Assembly (NCBI GenBank): GCA_002951815.1
Contig: CP019454.1
Coordinates: forward strand, 558,001 to 622,000
Direction of reading: 5' to 3'
DNA length: 64,000 nt
Origin: Sulfobacillus thermotolerans
GTDB taxonomy: Bacteria; Bacillota; Sulfobacillia; Sulfobacillales; Sulfobacillaceae
Position 1 is the stretch's first letter; every line of letters starts with the position of its first letter. Shown piece by piece: positions 4,105 through 39,321 of the stretch. Under the pieces are notes generated by a model. It saw only the letters and a list, made by a program, of their open reading frames with translations. It had not been told where the DNA came from and did not search any database. A program made the translations under genes and the position numbers.

Positions 4105-4123
4105 TGTGTGCCTATAGTGTGCC
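4105..4123 (+). promoter_or_regulatory. Candidate left integrase arm site
   Basis: TGTGTGCC-TAT-AGTGTGCC is two near-identical half-sites 11 bases apart. It matches the motif at 24282-24300 and, inverted, at 5288-5306. It overlaps the int stop codon and lies 69 bases from the attL core. Its function is inferred from motif repetition at both ends of the element. Confidence 0.6.
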
Positions 4124-5257
4124 GTTCCCAAACAGGAGGCTTTCGAGTTTACTCGTGGCCTGCTGTTGCAACGTCGGCAACACATGACTGTAGGTGTCCA
4201 GGGTGAGCGTAATGCTCGCATGTCCCAATCGTTCACTGACCACCTTGGGGTTTTCGCCTGCCACTAGGAGCAATGTGGCACACGTATGACGCAGGTCATA
4301 GAGCCGCAGGTCTTCTGGGAGTCCGGCTTTCTTGACCAACGGCTTAAAGTGTCGGATTCTGAAGTTCGAGTGATGAATCGGTTCACCGTTTTCTGCGGTA
4401 AACACCAACCCGTGGTCCTTCCACCTTTCCCCAAGACTTAGGCGTTGCTTGGCTTGTTCCACTTTCAGCGTTTTCAACGACGCGATGAGGGTTTGGGGAA
4501 TCGGTATGCTGCGGCCACTGTTCTGCGTTTTCGGTTCGTCCCATCGCCAGCCACCACCTTTGGCCACCCGCACCAGCACTTTTTTTACTTGCACTCTCCC
4601 GTTTTGCCAGTCGATGTCCTCCCAGCGTAGACCAAAATATTCTTCTGGTCGCATCCCCGTGACGAGGGCGAATTGGAACAACGTAAACCAGCGAGAGGAT
4701 TCTGCCGCGCTGAGAAAGCGTTTCGCTTCTTCTGGACTCAATGCATACATCTCGCGTCGTTGCTGTTTAGGCACCGAGACCTTGTCCGCTGGATTTTGAC
4801 TGAGCATCTGCCGCCGGACAGCCTGCTTCAGGGCGGACGAGAGAATGGCGTGGGTGTACCGAATCGTTCGGGGAGTCAGGCCCTGTTCTTGCATCGCCGA
4901 ATACAGCTTCTGTAGATCCAGTGGCTTAATCGTTGCTAATTTGCGCGGCCCCAAAGCGGGTCTCACGTATCGGTCTATCGTGGCCCTATAGTGATCATAG
5001 GTCTGGGGCCGAACCTTCGTTTTCACTGCCGATTGGTACCATTCGTCAAGGTATTCGTTAAGCGTACGCCGTTGCGGAGCCACTAAGGAACCCATGTCAT
5101 GATCGCGCAACAACGAATTCAAGACCTGTTGCGCTTCTTTTTTGGTTCCATGGACCGTCTGGTTGTGATAGGTCCGTTTTCCCGTTTTCGGGTCCCGACC
5201 AATAAAGATCCGGATCAACCACGTCCGGTCCCCTCGGGAGATGATTTGTCCAGCCAC
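4112..5257 (-). CDS. int: Tyrosine recombinase (phage-type integrase)
   Basis: A 381-aa site-specific integrase that would insert the element at tRNA-Arg. It has an N-terminal arm-binding domain (GQIISRGDRTWLIRIFIGRD...), a SAM-like core-binding domain (about residues 55-150), and a catalytic domain with R in TGMRPEEYFGLRWEDID, the YDLRHTCATLL box, LGHAS and the nucleophile in DTYSHV. The GTG at 5257 is the best start: AGGAGG is 7 bases upstream, and earlier in-frame codons run through a repeat motif in the leader. The gene points at the attL core 75 bases from its stop codon. All catalytic boxes are intact. Confidence 0.94.
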   Translation of the reverse strand: MAGQIISRGDRTWLIRIFIGRDPKTGKRTYHNQTVHGTKKEAQQVLNSLLRDHDMGSLVAPQRRTLNEYLDEWYQSAVKTKVRPQTYDHYRATIDRYVRPALGPRKLATIKPLDLQKLYSAMQEQGLTPRTIRYTHAILSSALKQAVRRQMLSQNPADKVSVPKQQRREMYALSPEEAKRFLSAAESSRWFTLFQFALVTGMRPEEYFGLRWEDIDWQNGRVQVKKVLVRVAKGGGWRWDEPKTQNSGRSIPIPQTLIASLKTLKVEQAKQRLSLGERWKDHGLVFTAENGEPIHHSNFRIRHFKPLVKKAGLPEDLRLYDLRHTCATLLLVAGENPKVVSERLGHASITLTLDTYSHVLPTLQQQATSKLESLLFGNGTL

Positions 5258-5287
5258 ATTTTTTCCTCCTGTGTGTTTTTTCGCAAC

Positions 5288-5306
5288 GGCACACATTTGG
5301 CACACA
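5288..5306 (-). promoter_or_regulatory. Copy of the arm-site motif in front of int
   Basis: On the minus strand this reads TGTGTGCCAAATGTGTGCC, identical over 19 bases to 24282-24300. It lies about 30 bases upstream of the int GTG start, in the leader or promoter, so integrase binding here could autoregulate int. This is an inference from identity and position. Confidence 0.55.
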
Positions 5307-5342
5307 GCCATCATGATACTGTTGTGTAGTAATGATTTCAAG

Positions 5343-5375
5343 AGTGAGCAGGAGATAGATAATCTCCTGCTCACT
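5343..5375. repeat. Perfect 14-bp hairpin between the HTH gene and int
   Basis: AGTGAGCAGGAGAT (5343-5356) and ATCTCCTGCTCACT (5362-5375) flank a 5-base loop. No T-run follows on either strand, so a classic terminator is unlikely. An operator, an excisionase site or an mRNA-processing structure is possible. Confidence 0.7.
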
Positions 5376-5639: not shown

Positions 5640-6733
5640 TCTGAGTTGGTGGTGCGTAATGTGCGGGTATACCCATACGGAAAAAAACGGGGTGAATCCC
5701 GGAGCATCAAGCGAGAGCCATGATTTAGAGCGTAAGAAACTACGGGTCATAAATCAGGGATAACGGTGAGAAAATTTAAAAGGCTCGAATGCTCTACTAA
5801 GCATGGATTCTGCGAGATTTGATGAGTTCCGGCAGACTCTCGGATCTAATTGCCGGGGTCTATGGGGTACTCGGATTATACATGCTGGGGCTCACGATTT
5901 CACCGCCATTTCGCTTGGGGTAGTATGTGGAACCTAAAAATGCCCAAATTCTATCAATTTTAATCATCCATTGAGATGACGCCAAATCATGAAACCGTTA
6001 TCTATCAAGGCATTGGAGCGTATTGGACGCTACTCAGTGCGTGATAAAGGACTCCTCCTTAAATGGGACTTAACGGAGTGATGGTGACTTTCAACGTTCC
6101 CTTCACCTTTATTACTCGGAATGGGTCACGCAATTTGTCCCCGGTTAAAAAACAAAATTTTTTTTGAAAAATAGGGTCGAGAGTGGGGCCGTTATTGGGG
6201 GGGTTATTCCGTATATAAGAGATGACATGTATTCCACGTCCATACTATTGCATGGTAAGGGGTTTAGCCTCCACTGTAGTGGAAAGTCGACGCCTCACCA
6301 TTCCCCTATTATGGTTGCACTAGTGACAGGAGCGTCGGAAGAGTACCCGGATGACCTTAAGCCGTGACAACCCAATTTATACGATAGTTATACCGTTTGT
6401 GTTGATGCCTTTGAAGTTCTTACGGAGTCTTAGATCGTGAGGCGAGGTGGGGAGATTGCGAAGGAAGAGAGCGTCTGCTTAAGTAGTGGAGGGTGAATGG
6501 ACGTTATTTCAGACGTAACAGATCTATTGCTGGATGAGCATTTGAGGCTCGTTGACCAATGGTTAGCCCCGCTTCGCAAAGAAAGAATGAGTGACCGCAG
6601 TCTTTTATACCGCGCGGGGGCATTAGCTGATGACTTCAACCATTGTAGGAACAACCAGGTGGTGATGACGGTATTCCTTGACTGGTTCAGCACGTCGTGA
6701 AGCTTTTGTATAGTCATATGCTACTCGTTTCAA
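5640..6733. other. Long stretch without a convincing gene
   Basis: No ORF with family features is seen in about 1.1 kb. A 67-aa ORF at 6497-6700 has GGAGG three bases before its ATG (MDVISDVTDLLLDEHLRLVD...) and may be a small gene or the remains of one, but nothing else supports it. The stretch is followed by a frameshifted ATPase-like remnant, so it probably holds decayed cargo. Confidence 0.45.
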
Positions 6734-7094
6734 TTCCTGGAATCGACTATCCTGGTTCTCACTGGCCTACCGGCATGCGGAAAAAACCACGTTCACCCAA
6801 TGGATGGCGGAGAAGCATGATTTATCATTACGGTGTTGGGAACCTGTCCGGCCTATTTGTATCAATGTGCGGTACTCCTCATCATTGACATGGCGCAAGC
6901 ATTTATCAAACTGCTCCGGGATAATGGAGGCCCTATAATTTGTGACTGGGGGCTTCCCTTCCTCGTTAGGGCAAGCGGTGCAAGACTTTATAGATGCGGG
7001 CCCAACCGTTTGGTGGTTTTATGACCCGTCTCTTGTTGCGCGCGAACGATATCAAGAGCTTGAAGGAAAACCAATCATTTTGACAGGTAGTTAG
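6734..7094 (+). pseudogene. Frameshifted P-loop ATPase/kinase-like remnant
   Basis: Three pieces of one protein lie in successive frames. The first reads STILVLTGLPACGK and, with one A removed from the AAAAAA run at 6781-6786, continues TTFTQWMAEKHD (a Walker A motif). The second reads AVLLIIDMAQAF followed by LLRDNGGPIICDWGLP. The third reads SLGQAVQDFIDAGPTVWWFY and ends ELEGKPIILTGS at stop 7092-7094. At least two indels separate them. It looks like a small P-loop kinase/ATPase of the element, now inactive. The family is not identified further. Confidence 0.5.
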
Positions 7095-7510
7095 CTCTAA
7101 TCAATCAATTTGGTGGAAAGGTTGCTAACCGTGAGGAGATTCATAACCTCCAAATATTATGAGAAGATGAATTGTATATGGCGGGCGATGACAGTTTCCG
7201 GTGTTACGACCCGTAGGCTAGCGATATGATCATCTTTGTGAACAAGGATGGGAATATATCTTTCTGTTCCAGGTGGCCCAGAAACGGTATGTTCGTCGAC
7301 ATGGGATGATCGACGTAAAAGGGCTACGGTCCTTACCTTGGGGTGGTTGAGCTCGTCCGAGCAACAAACTGCGACCGTACTAGCTGCCAAACTACGCCTC
7401 GTCGAGCTATTTATTGTTCTACGAATTAACGTTAAAACTGGAGAAGGAAAAACAAGGGAATTTGTCGAATGTTAGAATAAAGTTAGGATTCCTTGATTGG
7501 AGGGCTAACG
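7095..7510. other. Leader region upstream of the ABC-3C operon
   Basis: No supported gene. Short ORFs on both strands here lack ribosome-binding sites and family features. The operon promoter should lie here, but no strong -35/-10 pair is evident. Confidence 0.4.
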
Positions 7511-8682
7511 ATGAGTACCGGTCATGATGCTGCAGGACAAGCATTAGGATATGTATATCAGTTTGATCGTGCGACGTATAGACTCTTCCAGTCTGCCGTG
7601 GATGTTGTAGAAATAGGATTCGAAGATATAGACGATGTGAGTGTTCATTTTGACGATGGTAAGGAAATACGGGAACAAGATAAGTCTACAGTCAATTCTG
7701 GGTCGCCACTCTCCGATAGAAGTGTTGCCTTATGGAAGACTCTCCACGTCTGGGCAGAAACAATTTTAAGTGCCCCATCTGTTATAGATAATACAGAGTT
7801 TCATCTCGTTACAACTGGATCGCTTTCAACAGAATGTATCGCACGGCGGATTGATAGAGCCACGGATGAAAAATCGGCATGCAGTGTTCGTGATGAGCTA
7901 CGGAGTATGATTCCTACCTTGAGAAGTGATTTGGTTCCTTTTGGAACAACGATCAGTAAGCTAAGCGACTACCATTTATGTATGTTGATTCTAAAGGTTT
8001 CGGTGGTCGATGAGATGAGCTCTAGATTTGGAGGTAACCTTCGGGACTTGGAGGTCCTTAGGTTATTTGACTCAGGGATGCAACAAGGGATGTTTGATCA
8101 AATGAGGGGTTGGGTACAACGAAAGATCAGAAGTCTCGTCGAAAACAAGGAAAGGCCTCGAATTACACGTGACGATTTTGATAAGGAGCTGCAGGGGTTA
8201 TTTAAAAGGGTGACGGGGGCTCGTTTGTCGGCCATTATTGAGCCGTTTGACATGAAGAATGTCGACATTAGTGAGTACGGGGCACACGGTTTTGTCCAAC
8301 AACTTGATTGGATTAACGTGGATGAAGACGTAATTAGGGAGGCGATTCTAGACTATGTTTATGCAGAAGACACACGAATTAAATGGTCAGATACTAATGC
8401 TGTTTCAGAAACAACTCTGTTGCTTTATGAACAGGATCTAACAAAATGCTGGAAAACGGCTAGCAGAAGAGCATATAGAAATTCTCTTCCTTCCGATGAA
8501 TTAAAAGGGCAGGAATGCTTGGACCTAACTTTAGAACACGACACATATATTCATAACCATATTATGCCAAAATCGTTCTCTTGTGGAAATTTCCATGCTT
8601 TGGCTCATTTCGGCGAAGGACAGGAACCAGTAATCGGTTGGCATCCTCACTTCAAAGGCCTGTCTAAAGGACGCTCTAAGCA

Positions 8683-8686
<4 letters not shown>
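7511..8686 (+). CDS. ABC-3C effector component, DUF4297/Cap4-like nuclease with ABC-3C C-terminal domain
   Basis: A 391-aa protein, first gene of a three-gene operon. The N-terminus resembles DUF4297/Cap4-type PD-(D/E)xK nucleases: GYVYQFDRATYRLFQ, then E34, the acidic EDIDDV (residues 38-43) and a Q56-x-K58 motif, followed by LWKTLHVWAETIL. The C-terminus has the pattern of the ABC-3C C-terminal domain: VQQLDWINVDEDVIREAILDY, DTRIKWS, and FHALAHFGEGQEPVIGWHPHF. The ATG at 7511 has GGAGG 7 bases upstream. It overlaps the next gene by ATGA. By analogy with ABC-3C conflict systems it should be the toxic DNA-cutting part released by the ATPase; this role is inferred. Confidence 0.82.
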
Positions 8687-11387
<2,701 letters not shown>

Positions 11388-11827
11388 AGAGGCAGTCAAT
11401 TAACCGGCAGCCTAATGTTAATAAAGATATCCAACTGTGCGCGACTAGTATGTTTCGGCTTGGAACTCACACCGCTCAGTGATGCGCTTCTTATTGCATA
11501 ATTATGGACTAGGATGAAATTTATCGAGGGCATTCATATGCGCGATTGATAGGCGTAGGATGCCGATGACCAACCTGACGTAATACTCCCTCTGGTGATC
11601 AGATATAAGGACGACCCGGACAGGCCCTGATACGTTGACTTCGACGTTATTAAAGCTACTATGTCTGTGTTACTTTTACCCTTTTCCAGCGCGTTAGGTA
11701 AGCGTTGTGGGTGCTGCCATCCGAACCACCTTCACTGTGGTACGATCTCTCCCTAATTCCTTCCTAATCCAGTATAATTCTCAATATCATAGAATGTTGT
11801 GTCGAATGGAAGGGGTTCCGAATCTCT
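11388..11827. other. Gene-free spacer before the hsd operon
   Basis: No ORF with family features in 440 bases. TATAAT at 11773-11778, 50 bases before hsdM, is a candidate -10 box but no good -35 lies 17 bases upstream. The composition is AT-rich, like the ABC-3C operon. Confidence 0.4.
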
Positions 11828-13303
11828 ATGGCTTTGACGCTTCAAGAACTCGAATCGCACCTGTGGGAATCCGCCAACATCCTGCGAGGCAGTATTGACT
11901 CAGCGGACTACAAGAATTATATCTTTGGGCTATTATTTCTGAAACGGCTCAATGATGTCTTTGAGGAAGAACGTGACGCTTTACAAAATATTCCCGGTGC
12001 CGATCCCGACGAGCCCGTGGAATACCAATTCTTTGTCCCTGAACGTGCTCGATGGAGCTATTTGCGCACCATCGCGGTCAATGTCGGGGAAGCGATTAAC
12101 AAAGCCTTCGAAGCCTTGGAAGAACAGAACCGACGCCTCGAAGGAGTCTTGGTTAGCATTGATTTCAACAATAAAGACCGCCTTCCGGATCAGGTCTTAT
12201 TGCGCCTGTTGGCACACTTTAGTCAAATCCGCATTGGGAATCGCGATCTGCCCGAACCGGATATGCTAGGCCGTGCGTATGAATATCTCATTGCCCAGTT
12301 TGCCGATGATGCGGGGAAGAAAGGCGGCGAGTTCTACACGCCTCGTGGTGTCGTGCAATTGCTTGTAGCTCTTCTTCAACCCGAAGAAGGCATGCGCATT
12401 TGTGACCCGACCGTGGGTTCGGGAGGCATGCTGATCGAGTCGGTTCACTACATTGAGGCTCACGGTGGCAATGCCAAGAATGTGAGTCTCTACGGACAAG
12501 AAAAGAATCTCAACACGTGGAGCATATGTAAGATGAACATGCTTCTGCACGGCTTGCTCGATGCGCGGATTGACAAAGGAGACACCATCCGCGATCCCAA
12601 ACTGGTGGACCATGGCGAACTGATGCTGTTCGACCGGGTCATTGCCAATCCGCCGTTTAGTCTTAAAAACTGGGGACGCGAAGCAGCGGAGCATGATCCG
12701 TATGGTCGTTTTAAATATAGCCTGCCGCCGAAGAGTTATGGGGATTTGGCCTTCGTGCAACATATGGTGGCGACTCTGAATGTCACCGGGCGTCTGGGGG
12801 TTGTGATGCCCCATGGGATCTTGTTTAGGGGGAATAGCGAGCAACATATTCGCCAAGGACTTTTAGAAGATGATTTGATTGATGCGGTGATCGGCCTCCC
12901 CCCAAATCTTTTCTATGGGACGGGCATTCCGGCCGCTATCCTGATCATTCGAAAAGCGAAACCCGAAAGCCATCGGCACTGCGTCTTGTTTATTGAGGCG
13001 TCGCGGGACTTTCAACCGGGGAAAAACCAAAATAGCTTGCGACCTGAGGACATCGCCAAGATTGTGGATGCGTATACCGCGTATGAGGACGTGGAGAAGT
13101 ATGCGCGGGTGGTGTCAATCGAAGAAATCCGACAAAATGGCTATAATCTCAATATCTCTCGGTATGTGGATACCTTTGAAGAGCAGAAAGCGGTAGACAT
13201 CGGCGCCGTAATCCGGGAATTACGAGAACTGGAAGCGCAGCGGGCTGAATTGGAAGCCAAAATGTATGGATATTTGAAGGAGTTGGGGTATGAATATGAG
13301 TAA
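11828..13303 (+). CDS. hsdM: Type I restriction-modification methyltransferase subunit HsdM
   Basis: A 491-aa N6-adenine methyltransferase. The N-terminal HsdM domain starts LQELESHLWESANILRGSID and includes YIFGLLFLKRLND. The catalytic domain has GGEFYTPRGVVQLLVALL, the SAM-binding motif CDPTVGSGGMLIES (about residues 195-208), and the NPPF catalytic motif (VIANPPFSLKNW). The C-terminus is helical (ELRELEAQRAELEAKMYGYL). It methylates host sites and forms the core complex with HsdS and HsdR. It is followed, with a 14-base overlap, by an AbiTii/TIGR02391 gene rather than directly by hsdS. Confidence 0.96.
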   Translation: MALTLQELESHLWESANILRGSIDSADYKNYIFGLLFLKRLNDVFEEERDALQNIPGADPDEPVEYQFFVPERARWSYLRTIAVNVGEAINKAFEALEEQNRRLEGVLVSIDFNNKDRLPDQVLLRLLAHFSQIRIGNRDLPEPDMLGRAYEYLIAQFADDAGKKGGEFYTPRGVVQLLVALLQPEEGMRICDPTVGSGGMLIESVHYIEAHGGNAKNVSLYGQEKNLNTWSICKMNMLLHGLLDARIDKGDTIRDPKLVDHGELMLFDRVIANPPFSLKNWGREAAEHDPYGRFKYSLPPKSYGDLAFVQHMVATLNVTGRLGVVMPHGILFRGNSEQHIRQGLLEDDLIDAVIGLPPNLFYGTGIPAAILIIRKAKPESHRHCVLFIEASRDFQPGKNQNSLRPEDIAKIVDAYTAYEDVEKYARVVSIEEIRQNGYNLNISRYVDTFEEQKAVDIGAVIRELRELEAQRAELEAKMYGYLKELGYEYE

Positions 13304-14168
13304 CCAACCAATAAGCGACAGTCTTAATGAAATATTAGATCTTGCCATTCGAACGGATTCGGACAAAATTGTGCACTGGGTTCATTTAGAGTTGGGAGGA
13401 TATTATGAAAATAATCCCTTTGTGAAGCCAGACGACAATGTACCCGATTATAGAACAATACGAATAGTTTATCAATTAGAGAATGGGAGGCAAGTCTTTA
13501 TATCTGACGACAAGCTTGGGTTCGTTAATAATTATCCACTTCGTTTTAGTGTGCGGGAAATGGAAGAAATGGCCCAATCTCACACCGATTCCTTTATAAT
13601 TCCTGACCCGCCTCTGGTGAAACTTATTCAGCAGTACATGGGTGTGAATGTTGTATCTTTGGTTTTTCAAAAGGTGAGCATGATGTCGGTGTTGGATACT
13701 ATTCGAATGATGGCATTATCGTATAAGACTCAGTTGGCTAGTACTCTTGGACAGCCGGCACATGATCTTCTTAGCTCGTTGAATTTTCTCCACCCTAAAG
13801 TTCATGAATGTGCCGACGAGCTTATCGCCTCGAAACATTATCGAAATGCGGTGCTGGATGTTTATATTGCGCTCATAGAAGAAGTTAAAAAGCGATCCGG
13901 AGTTACAACCGCTGACGGTAAAGGTCTTATGCAGCATGTATTCTCTGCTAATAGACCAATTCTGCGTATTTCAACTGATCCCGATGAACAAGAAGGATTC
14001 ATGCATTTGTTTGAAGGTGCTATACAGGCTATTCGCAATCCGAAAGCACATTCCATTAGCATTGATACCACTTTCGAAGAGGCACTACAATGGTTAGCAT
14101 TTGCATCCTCGCTATTTCGCAGATTGGATCAGGCTGTACTTCAGCAGAAAAACGGTACTCAATCATGA
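13290..14168 (+). CDS. AbiTii-TIGR02391 fusion, abortive-infection-like protein embedded in the hsd operon
   Basis: A 292-aa protein with two recognisable parts. Residues about 8-110 resemble the AbiTii domain (SLNEILDLAIRTDSDKIVHW followed by VHLELGGY and PDYRTIRI). Residues about 160-285 resemble the TIGR02391/Ymh C-terminal family: HPKVHECADELIASKHYRNA, EEVKKRSG, a GLMQHVF segment and a terminal GAIQAIRNPKAHS with an R-x4-H HEPN-like signature (RNPKAH). It overlaps hsdM by 14 bases and hsdS by ATGA, so it is co-translated with the restriction enzyme. An RNase or abortive role is plausible but inferred. Confidence 0.8.
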   Translation: MNMSNQPISDSLNEILDLAIRTDSDKIVHWVHLELGGYYENNPFVKPDDNVPDYRTIRIVYQLENGRQVFISDDKLGFVNNYPLRFSVREMEEMAQSHTDSFIIPDPPLVKLIQQYMGVNVVSLVFQKVSMMSVLDTIRMMALSYKTQLASTLGQPAHDLLSSLNFLHPKVHECADELIASKHYRNAVLDVYIALIEEVKKRSGVTTADGKGLMQHVFSANRPILRISTDPDEQEGFMHLFEGAIQAIRNPKAHSISIDTTFEEALQWLAFASSLFRRLDQAVLQQKNGTQS

Positions 14169-15355
14169 AGACTAGTGACAAAACGCTGCACGAATGGGCC
14201 TTAGTGTCGTTAGGACAAGTATCTGACATTATTATGGGACAGTCGCCGCCCTCTAATAATGTCATCGATCAGCAAATAGGCCTGCCTTTTTATCAAGGCA
14301 AAACAGATTTTGGTGATGTTCACCCGATACCAACCGTGTATTGTCTTAAACCATTGAAGATAGCAGAACCTGAGGATATTCTTATAACGGTTAGAGCTCC
14401 TGTCGGGGCCGTGAATACTAACCATACCCGAGCAGTTATAGGGCGAGGGATAGCCTCCATTCGGCCACACCGTGACCGACTTCTGTCTAATTTTTTGTTT
14501 TATGTCATGCAATCTCCGAAAATCTCGTCTTATTGGAAACAAATTAAACAAGGAAGCACCTTCGATGCTATAAATAAGGACTCTCTTGAGTCTCTTAAAA
14601 TCCCCCTCCCCCCGCTCCCCGTACAACGGCGCATTGCGGAGATTTTGGGGAGTGTGGATAGTATTATTTTGGTCCGGAAGACTTTGGTCGAGAAGTTAAG
14701 GCTTCTTATGAACAACATAATGCAGGACCAGTTTTCTCGACTAGCAGGAAACAGGACGACTATAGGGGATATCGCAGAAGTGCAAACGGGACCATTTGGT
14801 TCGTTACTAAAATCATCATCGTTTGCCGCCGAAGGGGTCCCAGTCCTCAATATCGGCAATGTGAAGCAGGGATTCCTTGATACGACATCTTTATCCTTCG
14901 TTAATGACGGCACTGCAACTGCACTTAAGAATTACCGCTTAAGACAAGGTGACCTGTTATTTTCGCGCATGGCTACAGTAGGACGTACTTGTATCGTGCC
15001 TGAAGATGCAGAAGGCTGGTTGATGTCGTATCATCTAATACGTTTACGAATTCGTGACGAGAATATATTACCCCAATATGTGATGTATTCTCTCATTGGC
15101 TCGCCCAAAATCCAACATCAAGTTGCCATTCAAGCGTCTGGAGGCACCCGGTCTGGTGTCAATACAAGTATTCTTGAGGGGTTAGTTATCGATGTTCCTA
15201 GTCTCGATTCCCAAAAAAAATTGGTGAATTCTCTTGACGTAATTCAAAAACGCATAGCACATGGAGATGTACTTATTAAACAATATGAAACACTGCGGGA
15301 TAGTTTGTTAAATAAGTTACTTTCTCACCAATCACGCGAGGTATTAACGATATGA
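14165..15355 (+). CDS. hsdS: Type I restriction-modification specificity subunit HsdS
   Basis: A 396-aa specificity protein with two target-recognition domains, each followed by a conserved helical region. The first half reads WALVSLGQVSDIIMGQSPPS and ends PLPPLPVQRRIAEILGSVDS. The second starts TTIGDIAEVQTGPFGSLLKS and ends with a weaker LDSQKKLVNSLDVIQKRIA spacer. The ATG at 14165 overlaps the previous stop by ATGA. It recognises a bipartite DNA site whose sequence cannot be predicted here. The stop overlaps hsdR by ATGA. Confidence 0.94.
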   Translation: MKTSDKTLHEWALVSLGQVSDIIMGQSPPSNNVIDQQIGLPFYQGKTDFGDVHPIPTVYCLKPLKIAEPEDILITVRAPVGAVNTNHTRAVIGRGIASIRPHRDRLLSNFLFYVMQSPKISSYWKQIKQGSTFDAINKDSLESLKIPLPPLPVQRRIAEILGSVDSIILVRKTLVEKLRLLMNNIMQDQFSRLAGNRTTIGDIAEVQTGPFGSLLKSSSFAAEGVPVLNIGNVKQGFLDTTSLSFVNDGTATALKNYRLRQGDLLFSRMATVGRTCIVPEDAEGWLMSYHLIRLRIRDENILPQYVMYSLIGSPKIQHQVAIQASGGTRSGVNTSILEGLVIDVPSLDSQKKLVNSLDVIQKRIAHGDVLIKQYETLRDSLLNKLLSHQSREVLTI

Positions 15356-18291
15356 CCCAATGGTCTGAATCCCACCTCTCTGAATCCCCCGCCCTGCGCC
15401 GTCTGATCGCACTCGGTTGGACGCATGTCCCCGGCTCCACCATCGACCAAGAGCGAGACTCCTTGGCACATGCCATCTTGCCCCAACGTCTCTTAAACGC
15501 CGTCAAACGGCTCAATCCATGGATATCCCCGGCCAATACGGTTCAAGTAATGCGTCGGGTCACGCAAGTACAAGCTGCCAGCCTCTTGGAAGCCAATGCG
15601 CAAGTGCATCAAGATTTGACCACGTACTTTAGTCTGGAACAGGATCTCGGTCAAGGGCGGCGACACCAGACGGTGCAGATCATTGATTGGGATGACCCTT
15701 CAAATAATGATTTTGTTGTGGTCGACCAGTTTTGGGTGCATGGCACTGAAAAGATTCGGGCCGATCTCGTGCTCTTCGTCAATGGGCTTCCGTTGGTCGT
15801 CATTGAAGCCAAAAATCCTGCCTTAGTCTCTCATCCCCTCGAAGAGGCTACGGATCAATTGGAACGCTATCAACGGGTGGCGCCCCAACTCTTCTGGACG
15901 AATCAACTCTGTGTGGCGATTTGGGGCCAAGGCGCACGGCTGGCTCCGATTCAAGCTCCCGCACGGCATTGGGCGGAATGGAAAGATCCTTATCCATGGG
16001 CCATAGAGGACTTGGGTGCAGATGCGTTGCCACAAGATACGTTGCTGGCCGGAGCGTTGACTCCCGCACATCTGTTGGACCTGTCGCGCAACTTCATCGT
16101 CTTTGAACCCGATGGGCATACGATCATAAAAAAAGTCGCCCGATATCAACAATGGCGAGCTGTCACCAAAGCCATGGATCGCATTGTGCATGCGCCAAAT
16201 AATGCAGAACGGGGTGGAGTGGTGTGGCATACCCAAGGGTCGGGGAAGTCGTTGACCATGGTGTATATGGCGTTGAAACTGCGGCGCACCCCCGGTTTGC
16301 AAAACCCCACAATTTTGGTGGTCACGGATCGGCGGGACTTAGACCGGCAGATCGCGGGAACCTTTCAACGGTGCGGATTCCCGAACCCCGTGCGCGTAGA
16401 GAGCATCCAGCAGTTACGCGATCAGTTGCTGAATGGCGGGCAGGGTCAGACGCTCATGACCACCATTCAAAAGTTCCAAGTCCCGAAAACTTCGCCTACG
16501 GCCAAGCACCCAGTCCTGAGCGAAGACAGTAATCTCTTTGTGATGGTTGATGAGGCTCACCGAACTCAATATCACGGATTGGCGCATAACATGCGGGTCG
16601 CGTTGCCGCATGCCTTCTTCCTTGGCTTTACCGGGACACCCATTGATAAAAAGGATCGGAGTACGCCCCAGACGTTTGGCTCTTACATTGATACCTACAC
16701 CATTAAGCAGTCGGTCGAGGATGGCGCGACCGTGCCGATCTTCTATGAGTCCCGGCTGCCGGAGGTGCAGGTGGAAGGGCACTCGCTTGATACCTTATTT
16801 GACCGCGTGTTTCGGGATTACCGCGAGGAAGAACGGGAAGCGATTAAGAAACGTTACGCCAATCTGAACAGCATTATTCGAAGTCCGCAACGGATTGAGC
16901 AGGTTTGTTTGGATTTGATTCAGCATTATGAAACCCATATCCAGCCTAATGGGTTTAAGGCCCAAATTGTGGCGATTGATCGCGAGACGGCGGTACTTTA
17001 TCACGAAACCCTTCGACGCCTCAATGGCCCCCAAAGTGCCGTCATTATTTCCGTGACCAACGATGACAATGACCGAATGAAGCAGTATAAACTGACGGCG
17101 GACCAAGAAGCGAGGCTCATTGATCGCTTTAAACAGCCGTTGGATGTAGATCCCTTAGCTATGCTCATTGTCTGCGATAAGCTCATCACGGGATTTGATG
17201 CGCCCGTGGAACAAGTGCTGTACTTAGATGATGGACTGCGCGAACATACCTTGCTTCAAGCCATTGCCCGCGTGAATCGGCCCGCTCCCGGTAAAACCTA
17301 TGGGCTCGTGGTGGATTATTACGGCATTGGCGGCTTGTTAGATGAGGCTCTAGGTATTTTTGACACGCAGGATGTCCAAGATATCCTGCATCCCTTAACT
17401 GATGATCTGCCTGCCTTGGAACAAGCGCATAGGACCGTGATGAGGATTTTTGATGGGATTGACCCGAATGATTTGGATGCGTTGGTGCGCTATTTAGAAC
17501 CGGAAGATCGGCGGATTCATTTTGATAACGCTTTTTTGCAATTTGCCAAGCACTTAGACCGGGTGATGCCCGATCCAGTGGCGGCACCTTATCTCGATGA
17601 CATGCGCTGGCTCGGAAAAATTCGCATGGGGGCCAAGAATCGGTATCGGGAAGAGACCTTAGATCTCTCTGGTGTCGGCGCGAAGGTTCGCCAGCTCATT
17701 GATGATCATATTCGGTCTTCGGGAGTAACTAGCCTTTTAGCTCCGATATCCATTCTGGACCCCGCCTTTCATCAAAAAATCATGGAGGGACTTCCTGATC
17801 CGGAAGCCCGTGCGCATGAAATGGAACATGCCTTGCGCCATGAGATTCGTGTCCGTCAGAAAGAAAACCCGGTCGCATGGACGTCCCTGCGGCAACGGTT
17901 GGATGAGCTAATTCAGCAATACCGTCAACTGCGGATTACATTGGCAGAACTCTTGCAACAAATGGCCACCATGCGGACCGAGGCACAGGAAATTGTTCAA
18001 GGCAGTCAAGTCGATGGTCTATCCCCTACCGTGTCGGCGTTTCGGAGCCTGTTGGTGGAGGCATTAGATGCTTCTGGAGAACGGACGGATACCATGACTG
18101 CATTGGCTGAATCGATTGTAGAAGGACTCCAAGGGCTGCGAGTGATTGATTGGCAAGTCAAAGAGGATGTGCAGCGGGAAATGCAGCGGTTTATTCGGAG
18201 GCAATTGCGGGTGGCCGGGGTTACGGAGTCTAGCGTATTAGCCCAGTTGACGGGGAAGTTGATGGAGTTGGTGAGAGTGAGATTAACATGA
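15352..18291 (+). CDS. hsdR: Type I restriction enzyme motor/nuclease subunit HsdR
   Basis: A 979-aa protein with an N-terminal HSDR_N PD-(D/E)xK nuclease domain (RADLVLFVNGLPLVVIEAKN; ID...EAK motif near residues 140-150), an SF2 translocase with Walker A TQGSGKSLTM (about residue 295), DEAHRTQYHG, FLGFTGTP, ITGFDAPVEQVLYLDD and AIARVNRPAPGK, and a helical C-terminal assembly region. All nuclease and helicase motifs look intact. It starts inside the hsdS stop (ATGA) and its own stop overlaps the next gene by ATGA. Confidence 0.96.
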   Translation: MTQWSESHLSESPALRRLIALGWTHVPGSTIDQERDSLAHAILPQRLLNAVKRLNPWISPANTVQVMRRVTQVQAASLLEANAQVHQDLTTYFSLEQDLGQGRRHQTVQIIDWDDPSNNDFVVVDQFWVHGTEKIRADLVLFVNGLPLVVIEAKNPALVSHPLEEATDQLERYQRVAPQLFWTNQLCVAIWGQGARLAPIQAPARHWAEWKDPYPWAIEDLGADALPQDTLLAGALTPAHLLDLSRNFIVFEPDGHTIIKKVARYQQWRAVTKAMDRIVHAPNNAERGGVVWHTQGSGKSLTMVYMALKLRRTPGLQNPTILVVTDRRDLDRQIAGTFQRCGFPNPVRVESIQQLRDQLLNGGQGQTLMTTIQKFQVPKTSPTAKHPVLSEDSNLFVMVDEAHRTQYHGLAHNMRVALPHAFFLGFTGTPIDKKDRSTPQTFGSYIDTYTIKQSVEDGATVPIFYESRLPEVQVEGHSLDTLFDRVFRDYREEEREAIKKRYANLNSIIRSPQRIEQVCLDLIQHYETHIQPNGFKAQIVAIDRETAVLYHETLRRLNGPQSAVIISVTNDDNDRMKQYKLTADQEARLIDRFKQPLDVDPLAMLIVCDKLITGFDAPVEQVLYLDDGLREHTLLQAIARVNRPAPGKTYGLVVDYYGIGGLLDEALGIFDTQDVQDILHPLTDDLPALEQAHRTVMRIFDGIDPNDLDALVRYLEPEDRRIHFDNAFLQFAKHLDRVMPDPVAAPYLDDMRWLGKIRMGAKNRYREETLDLSGVGAKVRQLIDDHIRSSGVTSLLAPISILDPAFHQKIMEGLPDPEARAHEMEHALRHEIRVRQKENPVAWTSLRQRLDELIQQYRQLRITLAELLQQMATMRTEAQEIVQGSQVDGLSPTVSAFRSLLVEALDASGERTDTMTALAESIVEGLQGLRVIDWQVKEDVQREMQRFIRRQLRVAGVTESSVLAQLTGKLMELVRVRLT

Positions 18292-18950
18292 CATTACTCG
18301 TCCAATGGATTTCCGCCCATGGTGTAACAATTTTGTCAGCAGTGTTTACTGGGGTTGCAGCAAGCTTGTTATCGCCGTGGATGAGATATCTCGTCGAAAC
18401 AAAAATAGAAAAAAGGCATCGAAGACAACAAATTATGGAAGAGGAGTTGAAAGCCCTCTACGAACCTCTCGTGAAAATTATGGAAAGATATCTTGATCCG
18501 TATTCCGAAGATTATGGCGGAATGGATGAGGTTCTTAAATTGACCTACAAATCTCGTCGATATGCTTCTCGTGATTTAATTACATTGGTCACTTCTGCAA
18601 CTGCTCAGCACAACCTCAGGGGTGGATATGAATATGACGAAGACGGGCAACTAGCACGATTCGTATATCACCGTTTTGAGTACCTTCGCAAACACTGTGG
18701 TTATAGCCGAGACATGAAAAATATAAGCATTTCTAAAACCCTGCGAAGTCTTAAATTCTATTATCAGCTAATCACTCTTAAAATCTATCTATGGAAACAC
18801 CAAACCGAGACCATCACCACCCCAATTCCGCCCCGTGATCCCGAAGCCACTGTTTCCGCGCCTCAAAGTCCGGGAGAATCACCCGTACTGCATCCCAAAA
18901 CGTCTGGCGATGATGCGGATAGCGGCGATGCGTCAACTCATGGACCATGA
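18288..18950 (+). CDS. Membrane-anchored protein at the end of the hsd operon
   Basis: A 220-aa protein starting within the hsdR stop (ATGA). Residues about 8-33 form one transmembrane segment (ISAHGVTILSAVFTGVAASL), followed by a basic helical region (VETKIEKRHRRQQIMEEELK) and an otherwise soluble domain. The last 45 residues are proline/serine-rich and lie antisense to the 3' end of the YgjP-like gene (137-base overlap). No family is recognised. Coupling to hsdR suggests a role with the restriction system, perhaps a membrane-located abortive or sensor function; this is inference only. Confidence 0.7.
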   Translation: MTLLVQWISAHGVTILSAVFTGVAASLLSPWMRYLVETKIEKRHRRQQIMEEELKALYEPLVKIMERYLDPYSEDYGGMDEVLKLTYKSRRYASRDLITLVTSATAQHNLRGGYEYDEDGQLARFVYHRFEYLRKHCGYSRDMKNISISKTLRSLKFYYQLITLKIYLWKHQTETITTPIPPRDPEATVSAPQSPGESPVLHPKTSGDDADSGDASTHGP

Positions 18951-19533
18951 CGTAATCAATGACAGAGAGTGGGGCTTGAATAAGACGCCAGTTTAAGGCA
19001 ATTAACCCGTCCTCACGACAGAAACCCCAACGCGATTTGTACTCCGCGATCTTGAGCCGTGTGGGATGGATTCCCACAGTCGGCGCATAGTGGTTGATGC
19101 GCTCGGGGAACAGGGTTTCAGCCTGTTGGGTGTACCACTGGATGAGAAGTTCACGTACGAGGATCGGTTGTTGCGCCAGCGGCAGCGACGGAATGGTAAC
19201 ACGCAACGTTCGTCCCTCCACAATGGCGCTGGGCTCAATCGTGTTATTCTGCTGTACTTTTAGCCGTAAAGGGTGTCCACGAAGCAAGAAGCCTTCTCCA
19301 CTGACAAATTCCTTGGAATTGGTGATGTACGGCGTTGGCGATGCTGTCAAATGCTTTAACAGCCACCGAGCCTTGCGGTTCAAAAGAGGCTCCAGTTGTT
19401 GAACATCAAATTGTGAAGGCACTAAAACAGTCACCTGTCTAGAGGCATCAATCTGGATAGCGGGATGTTGGCGACGAGGCCGTTCTTCAATAGTATAAGG
19501 GATGGTCGTGGTTCCAATCGTAATCGTTGGCAT
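18814..19533 (-). CDS. YgjP-like (M48/SprT-type) zinc metallopeptidase
   Basis: A 239-aa protein with the zinc motif HELTHRRYPHH (HExxH followed by a later H), preceded by KSRWGFCREDGLIALNWRLIQ and followed by WDAVRVILPDFEARKQWLRD, the pattern of the YgjP/DUF45 family. AAGGAG lies 9 bases before the ATG at 19533. YgjP-like genes are often found beside type I restriction genes. The substrate is unknown; turnover of restriction subunits has been suggested for neighbours of this type but cannot be shown here. It converges on, and overlaps, the upstream membrane-protein gene. Confidence 0.88.
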   Translation of the reverse strand: MPTITIGTTTIPYTIEERPRRQHPAIQIDASRQVTVLVPSQFDVQQLEPLLNRKARWLLKHLTASPTPYITNSKEFVSGEGFLLRGHPLRLKVQQNNTIEPSAIVEGRTLRVTIPSLPLAQQPILVRELLIQWYTQQAETLFPERINHYAPTVGIHPTRLKIAEYKSRWGFCREDGLIALNWRLIQAPLSVIDYVMVHELTHRRYPHHRQTFWDAVRVILPDFEARKQWLRDHGAELGW

Positions 19534-19806
19534 GGCATCTCGCTCCTTCCCTTCGCATTGTAGCGGAATGGGCGCAATCGTAAAGGGGCAATGGGAAATG
19601 GAAGAGGGAACCATCGAGGATTTTTAGATTTTTGACTAGGATGCTCAGGCCTTCTTAGAATACTAGCATCATCCCGGCGGATTCAACAGCAGATTCAGAA
19701 ACTCCTGGCTGTGGGAGAGAACGGCGAGGGTTGGTCGGGACCGAATTGGGTTCCAAACGGGTGGTACTGTAATGAATTTGATAGTTATAAAGGAGAACGG
19801 CGTACT

Positions 19807-21894
19807 ATGAAAGCATCTGAAACAAACCTCTTGAAGTTCCTGCAGGGTCCAAGACAATTCTTAGTTCCTATTTATCAACGGAAATACAGTTGGACAATCC
19901 AACAATGTCACCAGCTATGGAATGACATCATTCGGGCTGCGTCACGTGATGAAATCAAAGGGCATTTTCTTGGCTCCATCGTTTACATAGAGCGTGGACT
20001 GTACCACATTTCGACAGTCCCTCAGTTACTTGTCATTGATGGACAGCAACGCTTGACAACACTGTCCCTATTGTTGCTTGCGCTGGGTGAAGCCATCGAA
20101 AAGAGTGGTCAGTCGTGCATGATGACGAAGAGGAAGATGCTGAATCACTATCTAGTGAACAATGATGAAGAGAGTGAATGGTATAACAAACTGGTGCTTA
20201 CGCGCAGTGATAAGGACACCCTCATCAGCTTGATTGCAGGCAAGAAACTTCCCGATGAATCATCCAAAAGGATATATGAAAACTATAAGTATTTTGTAGA
20301 CGCGATCAAAAACAGTAACATCAGCCTGGACGATTTATACCAAGGCATCTCGAAACTGATTGTCGTCGATATATCGCTGGATCGCGACCATGATAATCCT
20401 CAACTGATTTTTGAAAGCCTGAATTCCACGGGTCTTGACCTGTCTCAGGCAGACCTTATCCGTAATTTCGTTTTGATGGGAGTGGAACCGAAAGAACAAA
20501 CCGAGCTATACAACGAGTATTGGTATCCTATGGAAAAGAGTTTCGGCAATCTGAGCGATTCTGTTCTTTTTGACCGATTCATGCGCGACTACCTCACTGT
20601 AAGGACTGGACGCATCCCCAATATCCAGCAAGTATATGCAAGTTTTAAGGAATACGTGTATCAGAACAGTCCGCTGAGTGTGAAGCAGATCGTCGAAGAC
20701 CTCTATCGTTTCTCAAAGTATTTTGTCAAGCTGGCATTTCAAACTGAGAAGGACAAGGACATTAATCTAGCACTGCAAGATATCAACACTTTAAAGGTGG
20801 ATGTATCTTATCCGTTCTTACTGGAAGTGTACGATGACTACGAGAGCCATCGGCTTTCAAAATCGGACTTTATTGCGATTTTGAGACTGGTCGAAACCTA
20901 TGTGTTCCGTAGAGGGATTTGTGGAGTACCCACTAACTCGCTGAATAAGACGTTCGCGAACTTAAGCAAGGAAATCGCCAAGGACAACTATTTGGAAAGC
21001 GTATGTGTGGCGTTCTTGCTTAAGGATACGTATAGACGCCTTCCCTCTGATGAGGAGTTCGCAAGGGAATTAGTGGTGAAAGATATCTACAACTTCAGAA
21101 ATCGCAACTACCTGCTTCGGAAGCTCGAAAATTTTAACCGAAAAGAGATTGTGGACATCGAAGCATATACCATCGAACACATCATGCCGCAAAATAACGA
21201 CTTATCGAACGAGTGGCGAAAAGATCTGGGGGAAAGTTGGGAGGAAGTTCACAAGACCTACTTGCACACCCTTGGGAACCTGACCCTCACCAGATACAAC
21301 TCCGAGTTGAGTGACCGACCTTTTAAGGCAAAGCGGGACATGGAAGGGGGCTTTGCCGACAGCCCTTTATGGCTCAATAAGGGGCTTAGGAACTTGGACT
21401 GTTGGAATAAGGCGACTATCGTAGAGCGTGCTCGGTCACTGGCGGATCGGGCATTGCAGGTATGGGAGTATCCCCAACTGTCAGAGGACGTATTATCAAA
21501 GTACAGGAATAAGGGGACTGAAGGCGAGACAGTGACTTACTCGCTTGCAGACTATCCGAACTTGCAAGGGGATATACTGACTCTATTCGAAGAACTGAGC
21601 AAGCGGATCTGTAATCTGGACAGCTCCGTACGAATGGAGGTCAAAAAGCTTTATATTGCCTTTAAGACGACTACGAACTTCGTCGATATTGTTCCGCAAA
21701 AGAGCAAATTGAGATTGTTCTTGAACATGCCATTTGATGAGATGCACGACCCAAAAGGACTTTGCAGGAATGTGGGGAATGTCGGACGGTGGGGCAATGG
21801 AGAAGTGGAGGTAAATACGTCATCCACCGATGAAATCGACGACGTGATGTTCCTCATCAATCAATCATTTGAGAAACATAGGGATGAGGAGTAG
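19807..21894 (+). CDS. Single-chain GmrSD-type restriction protein (DUF262-DUF1524-DUF5655)
   Basis: A 695-aa protein. The N-terminal DUF262 (ParB/Srx-like NTPase) part shows QFLVPIYQRKYSW and LLVIDGQQRLTTLSLL (DGQQR catalytic motif). The DUF1524 HNH nuclease part shows YTIEHIMPQN and LHTLGNLTLTRYNSELSD. The C-terminal about 110 residues (YSLADYPNLQGDILTLFEEL onward) resemble DUF5655. GmrSD enzymes use NTP to cut modified, often glucosylated hydroxymethylcytosine, phage DNA. The ATG at 19807 follows AAAGGAG. All catalytic motifs appear intact. Target modification is not predictable. Confidence 0.88.
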   Translation: MKASETNLLKFLQGPRQFLVPIYQRKYSWTIQQCHQLWNDIIRAASRDEIKGHFLGSIVYIERGLYHISTVPQLLVIDGQQRLTTLSLLLLALGEAIEKSGQSCMMTKRKMLNHYLVNNDEESEWYNKLVLTRSDKDTLISLIAGKKLPDESSKRIYENYKYFVDAIKNSNISLDDLYQGISKLIVVDISLDRDHDNPQLIFESLNSTGLDLSQADLIRNFVLMGVEPKEQTELYNEYWYPMEKSFGNLSDSVLFDRFMRDYLTVRTGRIPNIQQVYASFKEYVYQNSPLSVKQIVEDLYRFSKYFVKLAFQTEKDKDINLALQDINTLKVDVSYPFLLEVYDDYESHRLSKSDFIAILRLVETYVFRRGICGVPTNSLNKTFANLSKEIAKDNYLESVCVAFLLKDTYRRLPSDEEFARELVVKDIYNFRNRNYLLRKLENFNRKEIVDIEAYTIEHIMPQNNDLSNEWRKDLGESWEEVHKTYLHTLGNLTLTRYNSELSDRPFKAKRDMEGGFADSPLWLNKGLRNLDCWNKATIVERARSLADRALQVWEYPQLSEDVLSKYRNKGTEGETVTYSLADYPNLQGDILTLFEELSKRICNLDSSVRMEVKKLYIAFKTTTNFVDIVPQKSKLRLFLNMPFDEMHDPKGLCRNVGNVGRWGNGEVEVNTSSTDEIDDVMFLINQSFEKHRDEE

Positions 21895-22064: not shown

Positions 22065-22124
22065 TGTGACATGAAATTCTTGTTGTACTAGGTATTTTTC
22101 ATACAACAAGACACTCATGTCACA
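22065..22124. repeat. 60-nt cruciform abutting the rep stop codon
   Basis: The outer arms TGTGACATGA (22065-22074) and TCATGTCACA (22115-22124) are perfect complements. Inner arms TCTTGTTGTA (22078-22087) and TACAACAAGA (22102-22111) are also perfect, with 3-base internal mismatches and a 14-base loop. No T-run follows on either strand. It overlaps the last codons of the Rep gene, so it may be an origin, a single-strand initiation site or a transcription barrier. Confidence 0.85.
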
Positions 22125-23479
22125 CCTGATGGGCTCAGCAATCGAATAACCTGTCGCCGGCTGATTCCCACTTGTCTTGCGATGGTGGATTTATTATATC
22201 CCAAAGCCGAAAGTGTCTGCACTTCCGACCGATGGGCAGAGGCTGCGGCTTCTCGTGATGGCTTACCATGCTTGGCACGTGCGTGTTTCTTTCGTTCGCG
22301 GTCCCGTCTTCGACGTTCCTCAGGACCGATGATGGTGGTCATCTGCCGTTGTTCTTCTGCCGTAATATCTAGCCGATCAATGAGTGTTTCATTTTTTAGG
22401 CGATATAGTGGGGCAAACTCGTGGCCCTTCCATTCCACCGTTTCTCCGGCTTTGTGTTTTTGGACCGTTTGGATGACAGCCTGTAACCGATTGGCCAGTT
22501 CTTCTTCGTCCCAATCACTCAAAGACTGCACGAGTTCCTTCATCGCCGATGCAATATCGTCCTCTCCCAAATGGCTCAGGGCTACACCCAGCAGAAAGAA
22601 ATAACGGTCTCGCTCTCCGTGAGGGAGATATTCGCCATATCGCGTCACAATCAAGTGGAGAATGTCCTTCGCCACGGCTTGATACCGTGTCTCCACGGTA
22701 AAGTTACGGAGCCAATCCGGTTTACGCCGTCGTGTTGAAGGGGTTTTCCTGTTGGACGTAGCTTGTGGTGTCTTGTGGGACTCGTGCCGACCTAGGATGG
22801 CGTATTCGAGACTTTCGAAGTCCCAGCGAGTCTGCCAATAATAGTTGGCGGCATGGGGAAGGGCCGCAGTCCATGAAGCTTCCCAATGCGCCGCAATCTG
22901 TTCTAAGACGGCGGGCCTGTGACCCGTCTTGCTATTGGTGGCACCAACGAGGCGGACACATCGGGCGACATCCACCGCACTGGGATCAGCACCTAAGGAA
23001 CTTAGGGTCTTCCGTAGGTGTTTGATGACGTTTTGCCACCGTGGCAGCATGGTGGGTAGAATGGGATCAATACGCCAAAGGAGCCACATCCCGTTCCCCG
23101 ATGTTTGGGCAAACGTCGGGAGGGGAATCTGGGCATGGGTGAGCACCTTCACGGCTTCTGCTAGTACGGCCTCGGGGCTTGCCTGTTGCCACTGGGGCTT
23201 GGTGTGATAGTCTAAATCGACCCATATCGCATTAAGTTCCCGAAGATTTTTGGATTGACGAGGCCCGTTAAAACGGTTGAGTGTGATTACCATATCAAGA
23301 TGGTTCGAATACTGTGTCAAAACCTGCGGAATTGCGGAGACGGCCTGGGTATCCCAAGCCTTCGAATTGTTGCCGTTTTCCATCATACCAAAGGTTACGT
23401 AGCCAGAATACTCCCCGTGGAGCCATAGCGCATAATCCACGGGCTGTTGAATGTGGGACATGGAGGGAAGATTGACCAT
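22115..23479 (-). CDS. Primase-polymerase (AEP)-type replication protein with C-terminal HTH
   Basis: A 454-aa protein. Its first half has AEP primase motifs: LNAIWVDLDYH (DxD metal site, about residue 100), TSGNGMWLLWRI (about 150), and DPSAVDVARCVRLVGATNSK (about 190-210), as in Rep/RepB primases of plasmids. The middle is helical (HLIVTRYGEYLPHGERDRYF). The last about 50 residues form an HTH (LSALGYNKSTIARQVGISRR). The ATG at 23479 has AAGGAAAGG 11 bases upstream; an earlier ATG at 23554 has a poorly spaced site. It probably replicates the excised element. Confidence 0.82.
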   Translation of the reverse strand: MVNLPSMSHIQQPVDYALWLHGEYSGYVTFGMMENGNNSKAWDTQAVSAIPQVLTQYSNHLDMVITLNRFNGPRQSKNLRELNAIWVDLDYHTKPQWQQASPEAVLAEAVKVLTHAQIPLPTFAQTSGNGMWLLWRIDPILPTMLPRWQNVIKHLRKTLSSLGADPSAVDVARCVRLVGATNSKTGHRPAVLEQIAAHWEASWTAALPHAANYYWQTRWDFESLEYAILGRHESHKTPQATSNRKTPSTRRRKPDWLRNFTVETRYQAVAKDILHLIVTRYGEYLPHGERDRYFFLLGVALSHLGEDDIASAMKELVQSLSDWDEEELANRLQAVIQTVQKHKAGETVEWKGHEFAPLYRLKNETLIDRLDITAEEQRQMTTIIGPEERRRRDRERKKHARAKHGKPSREAAASAHRSEVQTLSALGYNKSTIARQVGISRRQVIRLLSPSGVT

Positions 23480-23584
23480 GTTGACGCCATCCTTTCCTTG
23501 GAGAATTGTCGTGTTCGGAAAATAAAAAGAGCCATCGCATGAGACGGCTCTCATTTCCTGCGTTAAGGGGTGAAACTAATGGGT

Positions 23585-38550: not shown

Positions 38551-39321
38551 ATGACTTGTTCAGTTGAGTCGAATAAGGAAAAGATAATTAAAAGTAAAAT
38601 GCGTGTCCAAAATCATGGGGAAGTGTTTACCCCAATGAGAATTGTTAACAGAATGCTTAACTTGCCTAAAATTCGTGAAGCTTGTCAGAACGTAACTTCT
38701 ACTTTCCTGGAGCCAACCGCAGGAGAAGGTGTGTTTCTGGTTGAAATTTTAAATAGGAAATTGAAGATGGTAGCAAACCATTATGGCGATGATTTAACAC
38801 GTTACGAGAACTATTCATTACTTGCTTTATCAACGTTGTATGGTGTTGAATTGCTTGAAGATAATGCTCAAAAATGCGTAATGAATATGTTTAAGGTCTA
38901 TTATGACGCTTATCGACAACAAGCAACTGAACATTGTGCAAAAATGAAAAATAAGGTCTTAGACAGCGCCAAAGTGATTATCGCTAACAACATTGCACTC
39001 GGCAACTTTCTGACTAAATTGACTACAAACGGTAATCCTATTACATTTAGTGAGTGGCAACCTATAAATTTACGCAAAGACACTAAGATAATCAAGATTC
39101 AACGTACTGAATACACGATCGACGATATTCTTGATGGCACAGTGAAGCAGAGCAACGCTTCAACTCATTTAGACAAAGTAGTTCAAATCACGTTGTTTAA
39201 CTTGTTTGATGATGATAAAGTATCCGAGACCGCGAAGAAACGAATGAGATACGTTCCTGTTAGGATTACTGATGTCTATAAGGAAGAGATGGAGGAAATC
39301 GATGGACAGAACAATAATTAA
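38551..39321 (+). CDS. N6-adenine methyltransferase-like small subunit
   Basis: A 256-aa AT-rich gene. It has a SAM-binding N6-MTase motif (FTPMRIVNRMLNLP, then FLEPTAGEGVFLVEILNRKL, motif I) but no NPPY motif; the equivalent position reads VIIANNIAL, so it may be non-catalytic. GGGGGTGAG stands 4 bases before the ATG at 38551. It overlaps the large GIY-YIG-helicase-MTase gene by 20 bases. Such pairs are annotated as restriction-modification systems; the small subunit probably assists the large one. Lys/Asn-rich codon use differs from the chromosomal genes, indicating recent transfer. Confidence 0.75.
   Translation: MTCSVESNKEKIIKSKMRVQNHGEVFTPMRIVNRMLNLPKIREACQNVTSTFLEPTAGEGVFLVEILNRKLKMVANHYGDDLTRYENYSLLALSTLYGVELLEDNAQKCVMNMFKVYYDAYRQQATEHCAKMKNKVLDSAKVIIANNIALGNFLTKLTTNGNPITFSEWQPINLRKDTKIIKIQRTEYTIDDILDGTVKQSNASTHLDKVVQITLFNLFDDDKVSETAKKRMRYVPVRITDVYKEEMEEIDGQNNN

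Follow-up and report, generated by a model that had tools for sequence, protein, structure and literature searches.

In the type IC R-M system EcoprrI, the gene of the anticodon nuclease PrrC, a HEPN RNase, is embedded in the hsdMSR locus; PrrC is silenced by the Hsd complex and released upon restriction failure (reviewed in PMC12707154). The general idea of R-M-linked HEPN or Ymh proteins as backup suicide RNases appeared in print in 2012-2013, in two papers (Makarova 2012, PMC3506569; Anantharaman 2013, PMC3710099) that include R-M-linked Ymh proteins such as paraMORC-Ymh fusions. Anantharaman 2013 (PMC3710099) counts Ymh (PF09509) among HEPN families whose motif is active, lists AbiTii-Ymh fusions and describes some HEPN domains as non-catalytic. 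According to the same paper, lactococcal AbiTii, part of the AbiT system (AbiTi and AbiTii), carries no HEPN domain. It was non-toxic upon expression in E. coli (PMC3985639). A Ymh domain is also contained in PD-Lambda-3_B, as modelled in PADLOC. PD-Lambda-3 reportedly belongs to the PD systems described in Vassallo 2022.

Here we describe an AbiTii-Ymh fusion gene located between hsdM and hsdS of Sulfobacillus thermotolerans, within a stretch of 64,000 nucleotides that was analyzed as a whole (the window). One PrrC-like guardian trait is present, namely a HEPN gene embedded in an hsd operon. PrrC combines an ABC NTPase at its N-terminus with a different HEPN family, whereas the window protein joins AbiTii to Ymh; Pfam, NCBIfam and PADLOC gave no match to ABC or PrrC in it. 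Silencing by the Hsd complex and release upon restriction failure, known for PrrC, are proposed for AbiTii-Ymh by analogy. The protein has the same domain and the same association as the R-M-linked Ymh proteins mentioned above. It has the AbiTii domain in common with lactococcal AbiT, here fused to Ymh, and no AbiTi partner is adjacent at the hsd operon, where the neighbours are hsdM and hsdS. PD-Lambda-3_B is matched by the Ymh part only (aa 170-284 to the C-terminal part of the model, 41 bits), with AbiTii in place of the PD-Lambda-3_B N-terminus.

Both halves of the general claim, i.e. Ymh as an R-M-linked HEPN toxin and the existence of AbiTii-Ymh fusions, are known from these papers. The available text of PMC3710099 and PMC3506569 mentions no AbiTii-Ymh in the hsdM/hsdS slot, no exchange with hsdS and no start-codon junction, though a similar operon may be drawn in the figures of the 2013 paper. 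As far as the searched literature goes, the occurrence of AbiTii-Ymh in this slot, the number of independent entries, the comparison with the empty site and the joint exchange with hsdS are new.

The AbiTii-Ymh gene and its operon

The initial annotation had placed an AbiTii-TIGR02391 gene between hsdM and hsdS, and this was confirmed by domain matches above cut-off for the ORF at 13290-14168 (abiTii-ymh, 292 aa). On the same + strand lie hsdM (11828..13303; 491 aa; Pfam N6_Mtase and HsdM_N, TIGR00497 above cut-off), hsdS (14165..15355; 396 aa; Methylase_S, 118.5 bits) and hsdR (15352..18291; 979 aa; Pfam HSDR_N and SWI2_SNF2, TIGR00348 530 bits). All three exceed profile cut-offs and form a complete type I R-M system in a single operon. 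The overlaps of 14 nt and ATGA reported earlier are borne out by the sequence: the 3' end of hsdM (13303) overlaps the 5' end of abiTii-ymh by 14 nt, and the abiTii-ymh stop codon (14166-14168) overlaps the hsdS ATG (14165) as ATGA. Another ATGA-type overlap joins hsdS and hsdR at 15352. We took the ATGA at 14165 as the hsdS start, the mechanical ORF call from 14090 being an upstream in-frame extension. No terminator-like sites were found on the + strand inside the operon, and a consensus scan for a separate abiTii promoter yielded no clear case; abiTii-ymh is presumably co-translated with the hsd genes. Among the listed ORFs, no further gene that might serve as antitoxin lies between hsdM and hsdR. 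AbiTii-Ymh is the only TIGR02391 match in the whole genome. A chance ORF was ruled out by the two domain matches, and a pseudogene by the intact frame and motif.

The translation start of abiTii-ymh is built into hsdM. Its last codons (...YLKELGYE; 13277..13292, + strand) read AAGGAG-TTGGGGT-ATG, in which a ribosome-binding site is followed after 7 nt by a start codon. This start serves abiTii here and hsdS in relatives: a closely similar layout precedes hsdS in three same-family genomes (L188-L190) and in Geobacillus, Vibrio and Rhizobium operons, and a similar hsdM-internal start precedes a PDDEXK gene in Iodobacter. Any gene downstream can use the hsdM-encoded start. Since the start lies ready in hsdM, the 14-nt overlap needs no special selection on abiTii. 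The overlap as a sign of functional partnership was rejected, because relatives start other genes at the same junction.

The AbiTii domain spans aa 4-154 (13299..13751, + strand) and matches PF18864 with 56.5 bits against a cut-off of 27.6, in line with the abortive-infection likeness first suggested. It is proposed as the sensor or docking part and contains a W...ELxGY motif around E34, in common with the protein of region L013. The Ymh domain, the proposed RNase, occupies aa 167-279 (13788..14126, + strand; PF09509, Hypoth_Ymh, 98.9 bits, cut-off 25), and the protein matches TIGR02391 of NCBIfam with 64.3 bits (cut-off 39.45). RNPKAH at residues 249-254 (14034..14051, + strand) is the predicted RxxxxH catalytic motif; in an alignment of 61 Ymh domains, 58 have an arginine where R249 stands, and all 61 have the histidine corresponding to H254.

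An AlphaFold2 model built from 15 alignment rows was confident over most of aa 167-282 and all helical there, with pLDDT >90 over most of the Ymh domain. For the AbiTii half no usable model was obtained (pLDDT <50, and aa 1-109 without any confidence). Foldseek by itself gave no significant match to the Ymh model. When the Foldseek candidates were realigned with VIA-align, the top eight rows (1wwp, 1ufb, 5yep, 7ae2, 2jpu, 4nqf, 1wty and 7ae8; Z 5.8-7.0) were all of the HEPN family. Four of them have HEPN in the entry title or represent the known HEPN toxin SO_3166; the remaining four we take to be HEPN-type. R102 and H107, which are named in the HEPN toxin entries, are spaced like R249 and H254. 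Z values of 5.8-7.0 are no proof for helical bundles; together with the motif, the predicted HEPN assignment is good, and the modelled all-helical HEPN fold of the Ymh domain has moderate support. The assignment to HEPN that the initial annotation had drawn from RNPKAH is thus supported by R/H conservation and the fold match. A sequence search of the PDB with AbiTii-Ymh returned solely an insignificant ClpB match.

Genes between hsdM and hsdS in other genomes

We examined how often Ymh genes occupy this position elsewhere. In a set of 348 Bacillota genomes, ten others had a Ymh match, and in two of these (L036 and L037) the gene lies nested in the hsdM/hsdS slot, its ends overlapping the neighbours by 4 nt. 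In L037, hsdM (6050-8095), Ymh (8092-8901) and hsdS (from 8898) follow each other; L036 is nested alike, with hsdR present too. The same order was seen in Parcubacteria C7867-006 (L029), with hsdM at 7136-8620, Ymh at 8617-9366, hsdS at 9368-11083 and hsdR at 11092-13410. Further samples of 333 Patescibacteria and 301 Chloroflexota genomes contributed two more regions. One (L120) has hsdM, Ymh, hsdS and hsdR in order. The other (L074) has hsdM, a cytosine-methylase-like gene, an ATPase-Ymh fusion, hsdS, a Fic-like gene and hsdR, its fusion being of the ATPase-Ymh type known from PMC3710099 and PMC3506569. Altogether, 5/42 Ymh regions, each annotated by profiles, were nested (L029, L036, L037, L074 and L120, from Bacillota, Patescibacteria and Chloroflexota) and 37/42 were not.

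By rough arithmetic (one junction in some 3000 genes), 0.014 of 42 regions would be nested by chance; clustering in defence islands raises this expectation, but hardly to one exact junction. When 58 Ymh domains were placed on a tree, the nested ones required five changes, forced by well-supported branches, and a single clade of nested Ymh was rejected (p-AU 6e-36). The simplest reading of these sequence comparisons is that Ymh entered the hsdM/hsdS slot at least five separate times. The conserved synteny anticipated by the initial annotation was therefore found for the Ymh half, which is not confined to this genome, whereas the exact AbiTii-Ymh architecture was seen only here. The N-terminal parts vary among nested Ymh proteins, and AbiTii occurs only in the window protein. 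As judged by PF18864, there was no other AbiTii-Ymh in the 348 Bacillota genomes or in 267 genomes of the phylum of a deltaproteobacterial MAG (G350), and no second one among 62 Ymh proteins or in 40 relatives. In 26 plasmid records there were AbiTii-like stretches, at about 27% identity; phage records gave no match, and the one Ymh relative from viral contigs was not accompanied by hsd genes. Ymh genes are mostly solitary, and many are plasmid-borne.

As for other occupants of the slot, 14 of 19 examined Bacillota type I operons had no gene >600 bp between hsdM and hsdS. The five filled slots held Schlafen AlbA_2, Bro-N/DinD-like proteins, RhuM and an Abi_C (AbiJ-like) HEPN gene (L168, 2589-3311), the last being a second HEPN family at this place. 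In an Iodobacter plasmid the slot contains a PDDEXK (YhcG) gene. From the varied families of these occupants, it can be inferred that the slot accepts several kinds of conflict-related genes, HEPN recurrently. Since Bro-N/DinD-like, RhuM, PDDEXK and Schlafen AlbA_2 are not HEPN, the slot may simply take passengers.

Empty site, exchange with hsdS and defence neighbourhood

In seven same-genus genomes no copy of the gene was found, and a search of 40 relatives gave nothing except a single partial Ymh match containing a stop codon. The same R-M lineage is present in three same-family genomes (L188-L190), with HsdM 95, 88 and 83% and HsdR 95, 87 and 72% identical to the window proteins. In all three, hsdS directly follows hsdM, without abiTii-ymh. 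Because three close relatives keep near-identical hsdM and hsdR without the gene, it is dispensable for the R-M system.

The closest relative (G1002, region L190, the one with 95% identical HsdM) aligns by blastn with 91% DNA identity up to 13293 and again with 93% from 15350. Between these break points, the window has abiTii-ymh and hsdS (2056 bp; 13294..15349, + strand), and L190 has just another hsdS, 27% identical at the amino acid level. The left break point coincides with the start codon of abiTii, which is that of hsdS in relatives, and the right one with the start codon of hsdR; this indicates that abiTii-ymh was exchanged jointly with hsdS, the two forming one cassette. Its GC content is 35-45% except for a short conserved hsdS centre (54%), as compared with 51-53% in hsdM and hsdR. 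The hsdS genes of relatives are GC-poor too (43-49%), so low GC marks the exchanged region as a whole. In G1002, hsdM is split over two frames (L190 4584-5959; aa 1-387 and 376-462), through a genuine frameshift or else a fault of the assembly, and the L190 operon may be non-functional; hsdM is intact in L188 and L189.

The hsd operon lies inside a defence cluster comprising an integrase, Lamassu-type genes, the R-M operon, a YgjP/SprT peptidase and GmrSD. The phage-type integrase gene is located at 4115-5374. Directly upstream of hsdM is a Lamassu-type (ABC three-component) operon (7493-11387) encoding LmuA-like (PADLOC 161 bits) and LmuB-like (451 bits) proteins, with MC3/LmuC as the middle component. 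Downstream, on the - strand, is a YgjP/SprT-like metallopeptidase gene (18814..19614; PF01863), a recurrent companion of this R-M lineage (L151-L155, L159 and L188-L190). At 22118-23554 lies a gene for a 479-aa protein without Pfam match. In L190, a 90% identical copy of it accompanies the same R-M lineage, suggesting a mobile element whose parts can be exchanged. Possibly, this gene and the integrase represent the ends of an integrative defence element.

Several other genes were observed in these surroundings. An ORF at 18288-18950 (220 aa, no Pfam match) overlaps hsdR by 4 nt. The space between hsdR and ygjP contains genes of 355+209 aa in L188, 335+209 aa in L190 and 374 aa in L189; as same-family operons hold other genes there, it constitutes a second variable slot. 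The GmrSD-type protein encoded at 19801-21891 has both GmrSD_N and GmrSD_C and, at its C-terminus, DUF5655. Another restriction-type gene (39272-43213) encodes a 1313-aa protein with ResIII helicase, Eco57I methylase and T5orf172 matches. In a Vibrio casei plasmid with the same R-M lineage (L158, 8242-14416), Fic and AbiEi/AbiEii genes are situated between hsdS and hsdR.

Candidate functions of AbiTii-Ymh

In the explanation we prefer, held tentatively and with slightly less than even confidence, AbiTii-Ymh is a latent HEPN RNase, produced along with the Hsd subunits and set free once restriction is blocked, similarly to PrrC in EcoprrI. It would be translated from the hsdMSR message, from the ribosome-binding site inside hsdM, alongside HsdM and HsdS. 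As long as the Hsd complex is intact, the RNase would be kept off; a phage blocking or overwhelming restriction would free it, and the freed RNase would cut RNA (tRNA or mRNA), stopping growth before progeny form. The C-terminal Ymh domain would act as the RNase via R249/H254, probably as a dimer, and the N-terminal AbiTii domain might be a sensor or docking part, a role that fits the lack of toxicity of the HEPN-less lactococcal AbiTii in E. coli (PMC3985639). Such a guardian would resemble PrrC/EcoprrI but with another sensor domain and another HEPN family; its RNase activity, toxicity, inhibition by Hsd proteins and trigger are predictions of the model. Gene order and overlaps were observed directly. 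The model is favoured because domains, motif and fold matches point to HEPN, because HEPN genes (including Abi_C in L168) were repeatedly recruited to the hsdM/hsdS junction, because abiTii-ymh was exchanged together with hsdS, and because the operon holds no other candidate antitoxin gene. The full-length match of the nested L037 protein to the defence component PD-Lambda-3_B (264 bits) and the precedent of PrrC (PMC12707154, PMC3710099) also speak for it. Against it stand the 37/42 Ymh regions that are not nested, the non-HEPN genes in the same slot, the relatives with 83-95% identical HsdM that do without the gene, the lack of an ABC ATPase such as that of PrrC, and an AbiTii half for which there is neither a usable model nor a second AbiTii-Ymh in the searched sets.

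Some of these observations would be expected if AbiTii-Ymh were an independent abortive-infection effector, with AbiTii sensing a phage product and the protein cutting RNA unaided. The R-M operon would then be a mere promoter, translation start and vehicle for spread. This is the main and a serious rival, and we consider it quite possible: Ymh genes mostly stand alone, many of them on plasmids, unrelated defence-type genes occupy the same slot, and the Ymh protein PD-Lambda-3_B is listed within its own defence system. However, at least five independent entries at the exact hsdM/hsdS junction, as well as the joint exchange with hsdS, exceed what loose defence-island clustering would bring. The cassette exchange, which links the gene with the specificity subunit, would also suit an effector activated by recognition itself, where HsdMS bound to unmethylated foreign DNA turns HEPN on as a second output and not as a backup. 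A PADLOC match to the Aga_HEPN model points the same way, but it is weak (36 bits) and the cell would pay at each entry of unmodified DNA, making this alternative improbable. Slightly less probable still is a non-toxic accessory, in which HEPN, instead of cutting RNA, would bind it or adjust how HsdS is expressed or assembled, or a decaying passenger; non-catalytic HEPN domains do exist (PMC3710099), yet the ORF is intact, the overlaps are tight and the R/H motif is conserved.

Returning to the RNase held in check by the Hsd complex, a bolder extension of it, which we regard as doubtful, would make the hsdM/hsdS junction a plug-in site for RNase effectors, where hsdM lends the ribosome-binding site and start codon, HEPN genes come in and are swapped along with hsdS, and each HsdS travels with its own matched, HsdS-gated suicide RNase. 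The experimental basis for HEPN suicide RNases as a second line of R-M defence has so far been mainly PrrC. The locus described here offers an unusually clean natural experiment, since within one bacterial family near-identical hsdM and hsdR genes occur both next to the HEPN gene and in its absence, and it is accompanied by at least five independent recruitments to one slot in three phyla. Owing to this natural experiment and the repeated recruitments, the coupling of immunity and suicide becomes directly testable outside PrrC.
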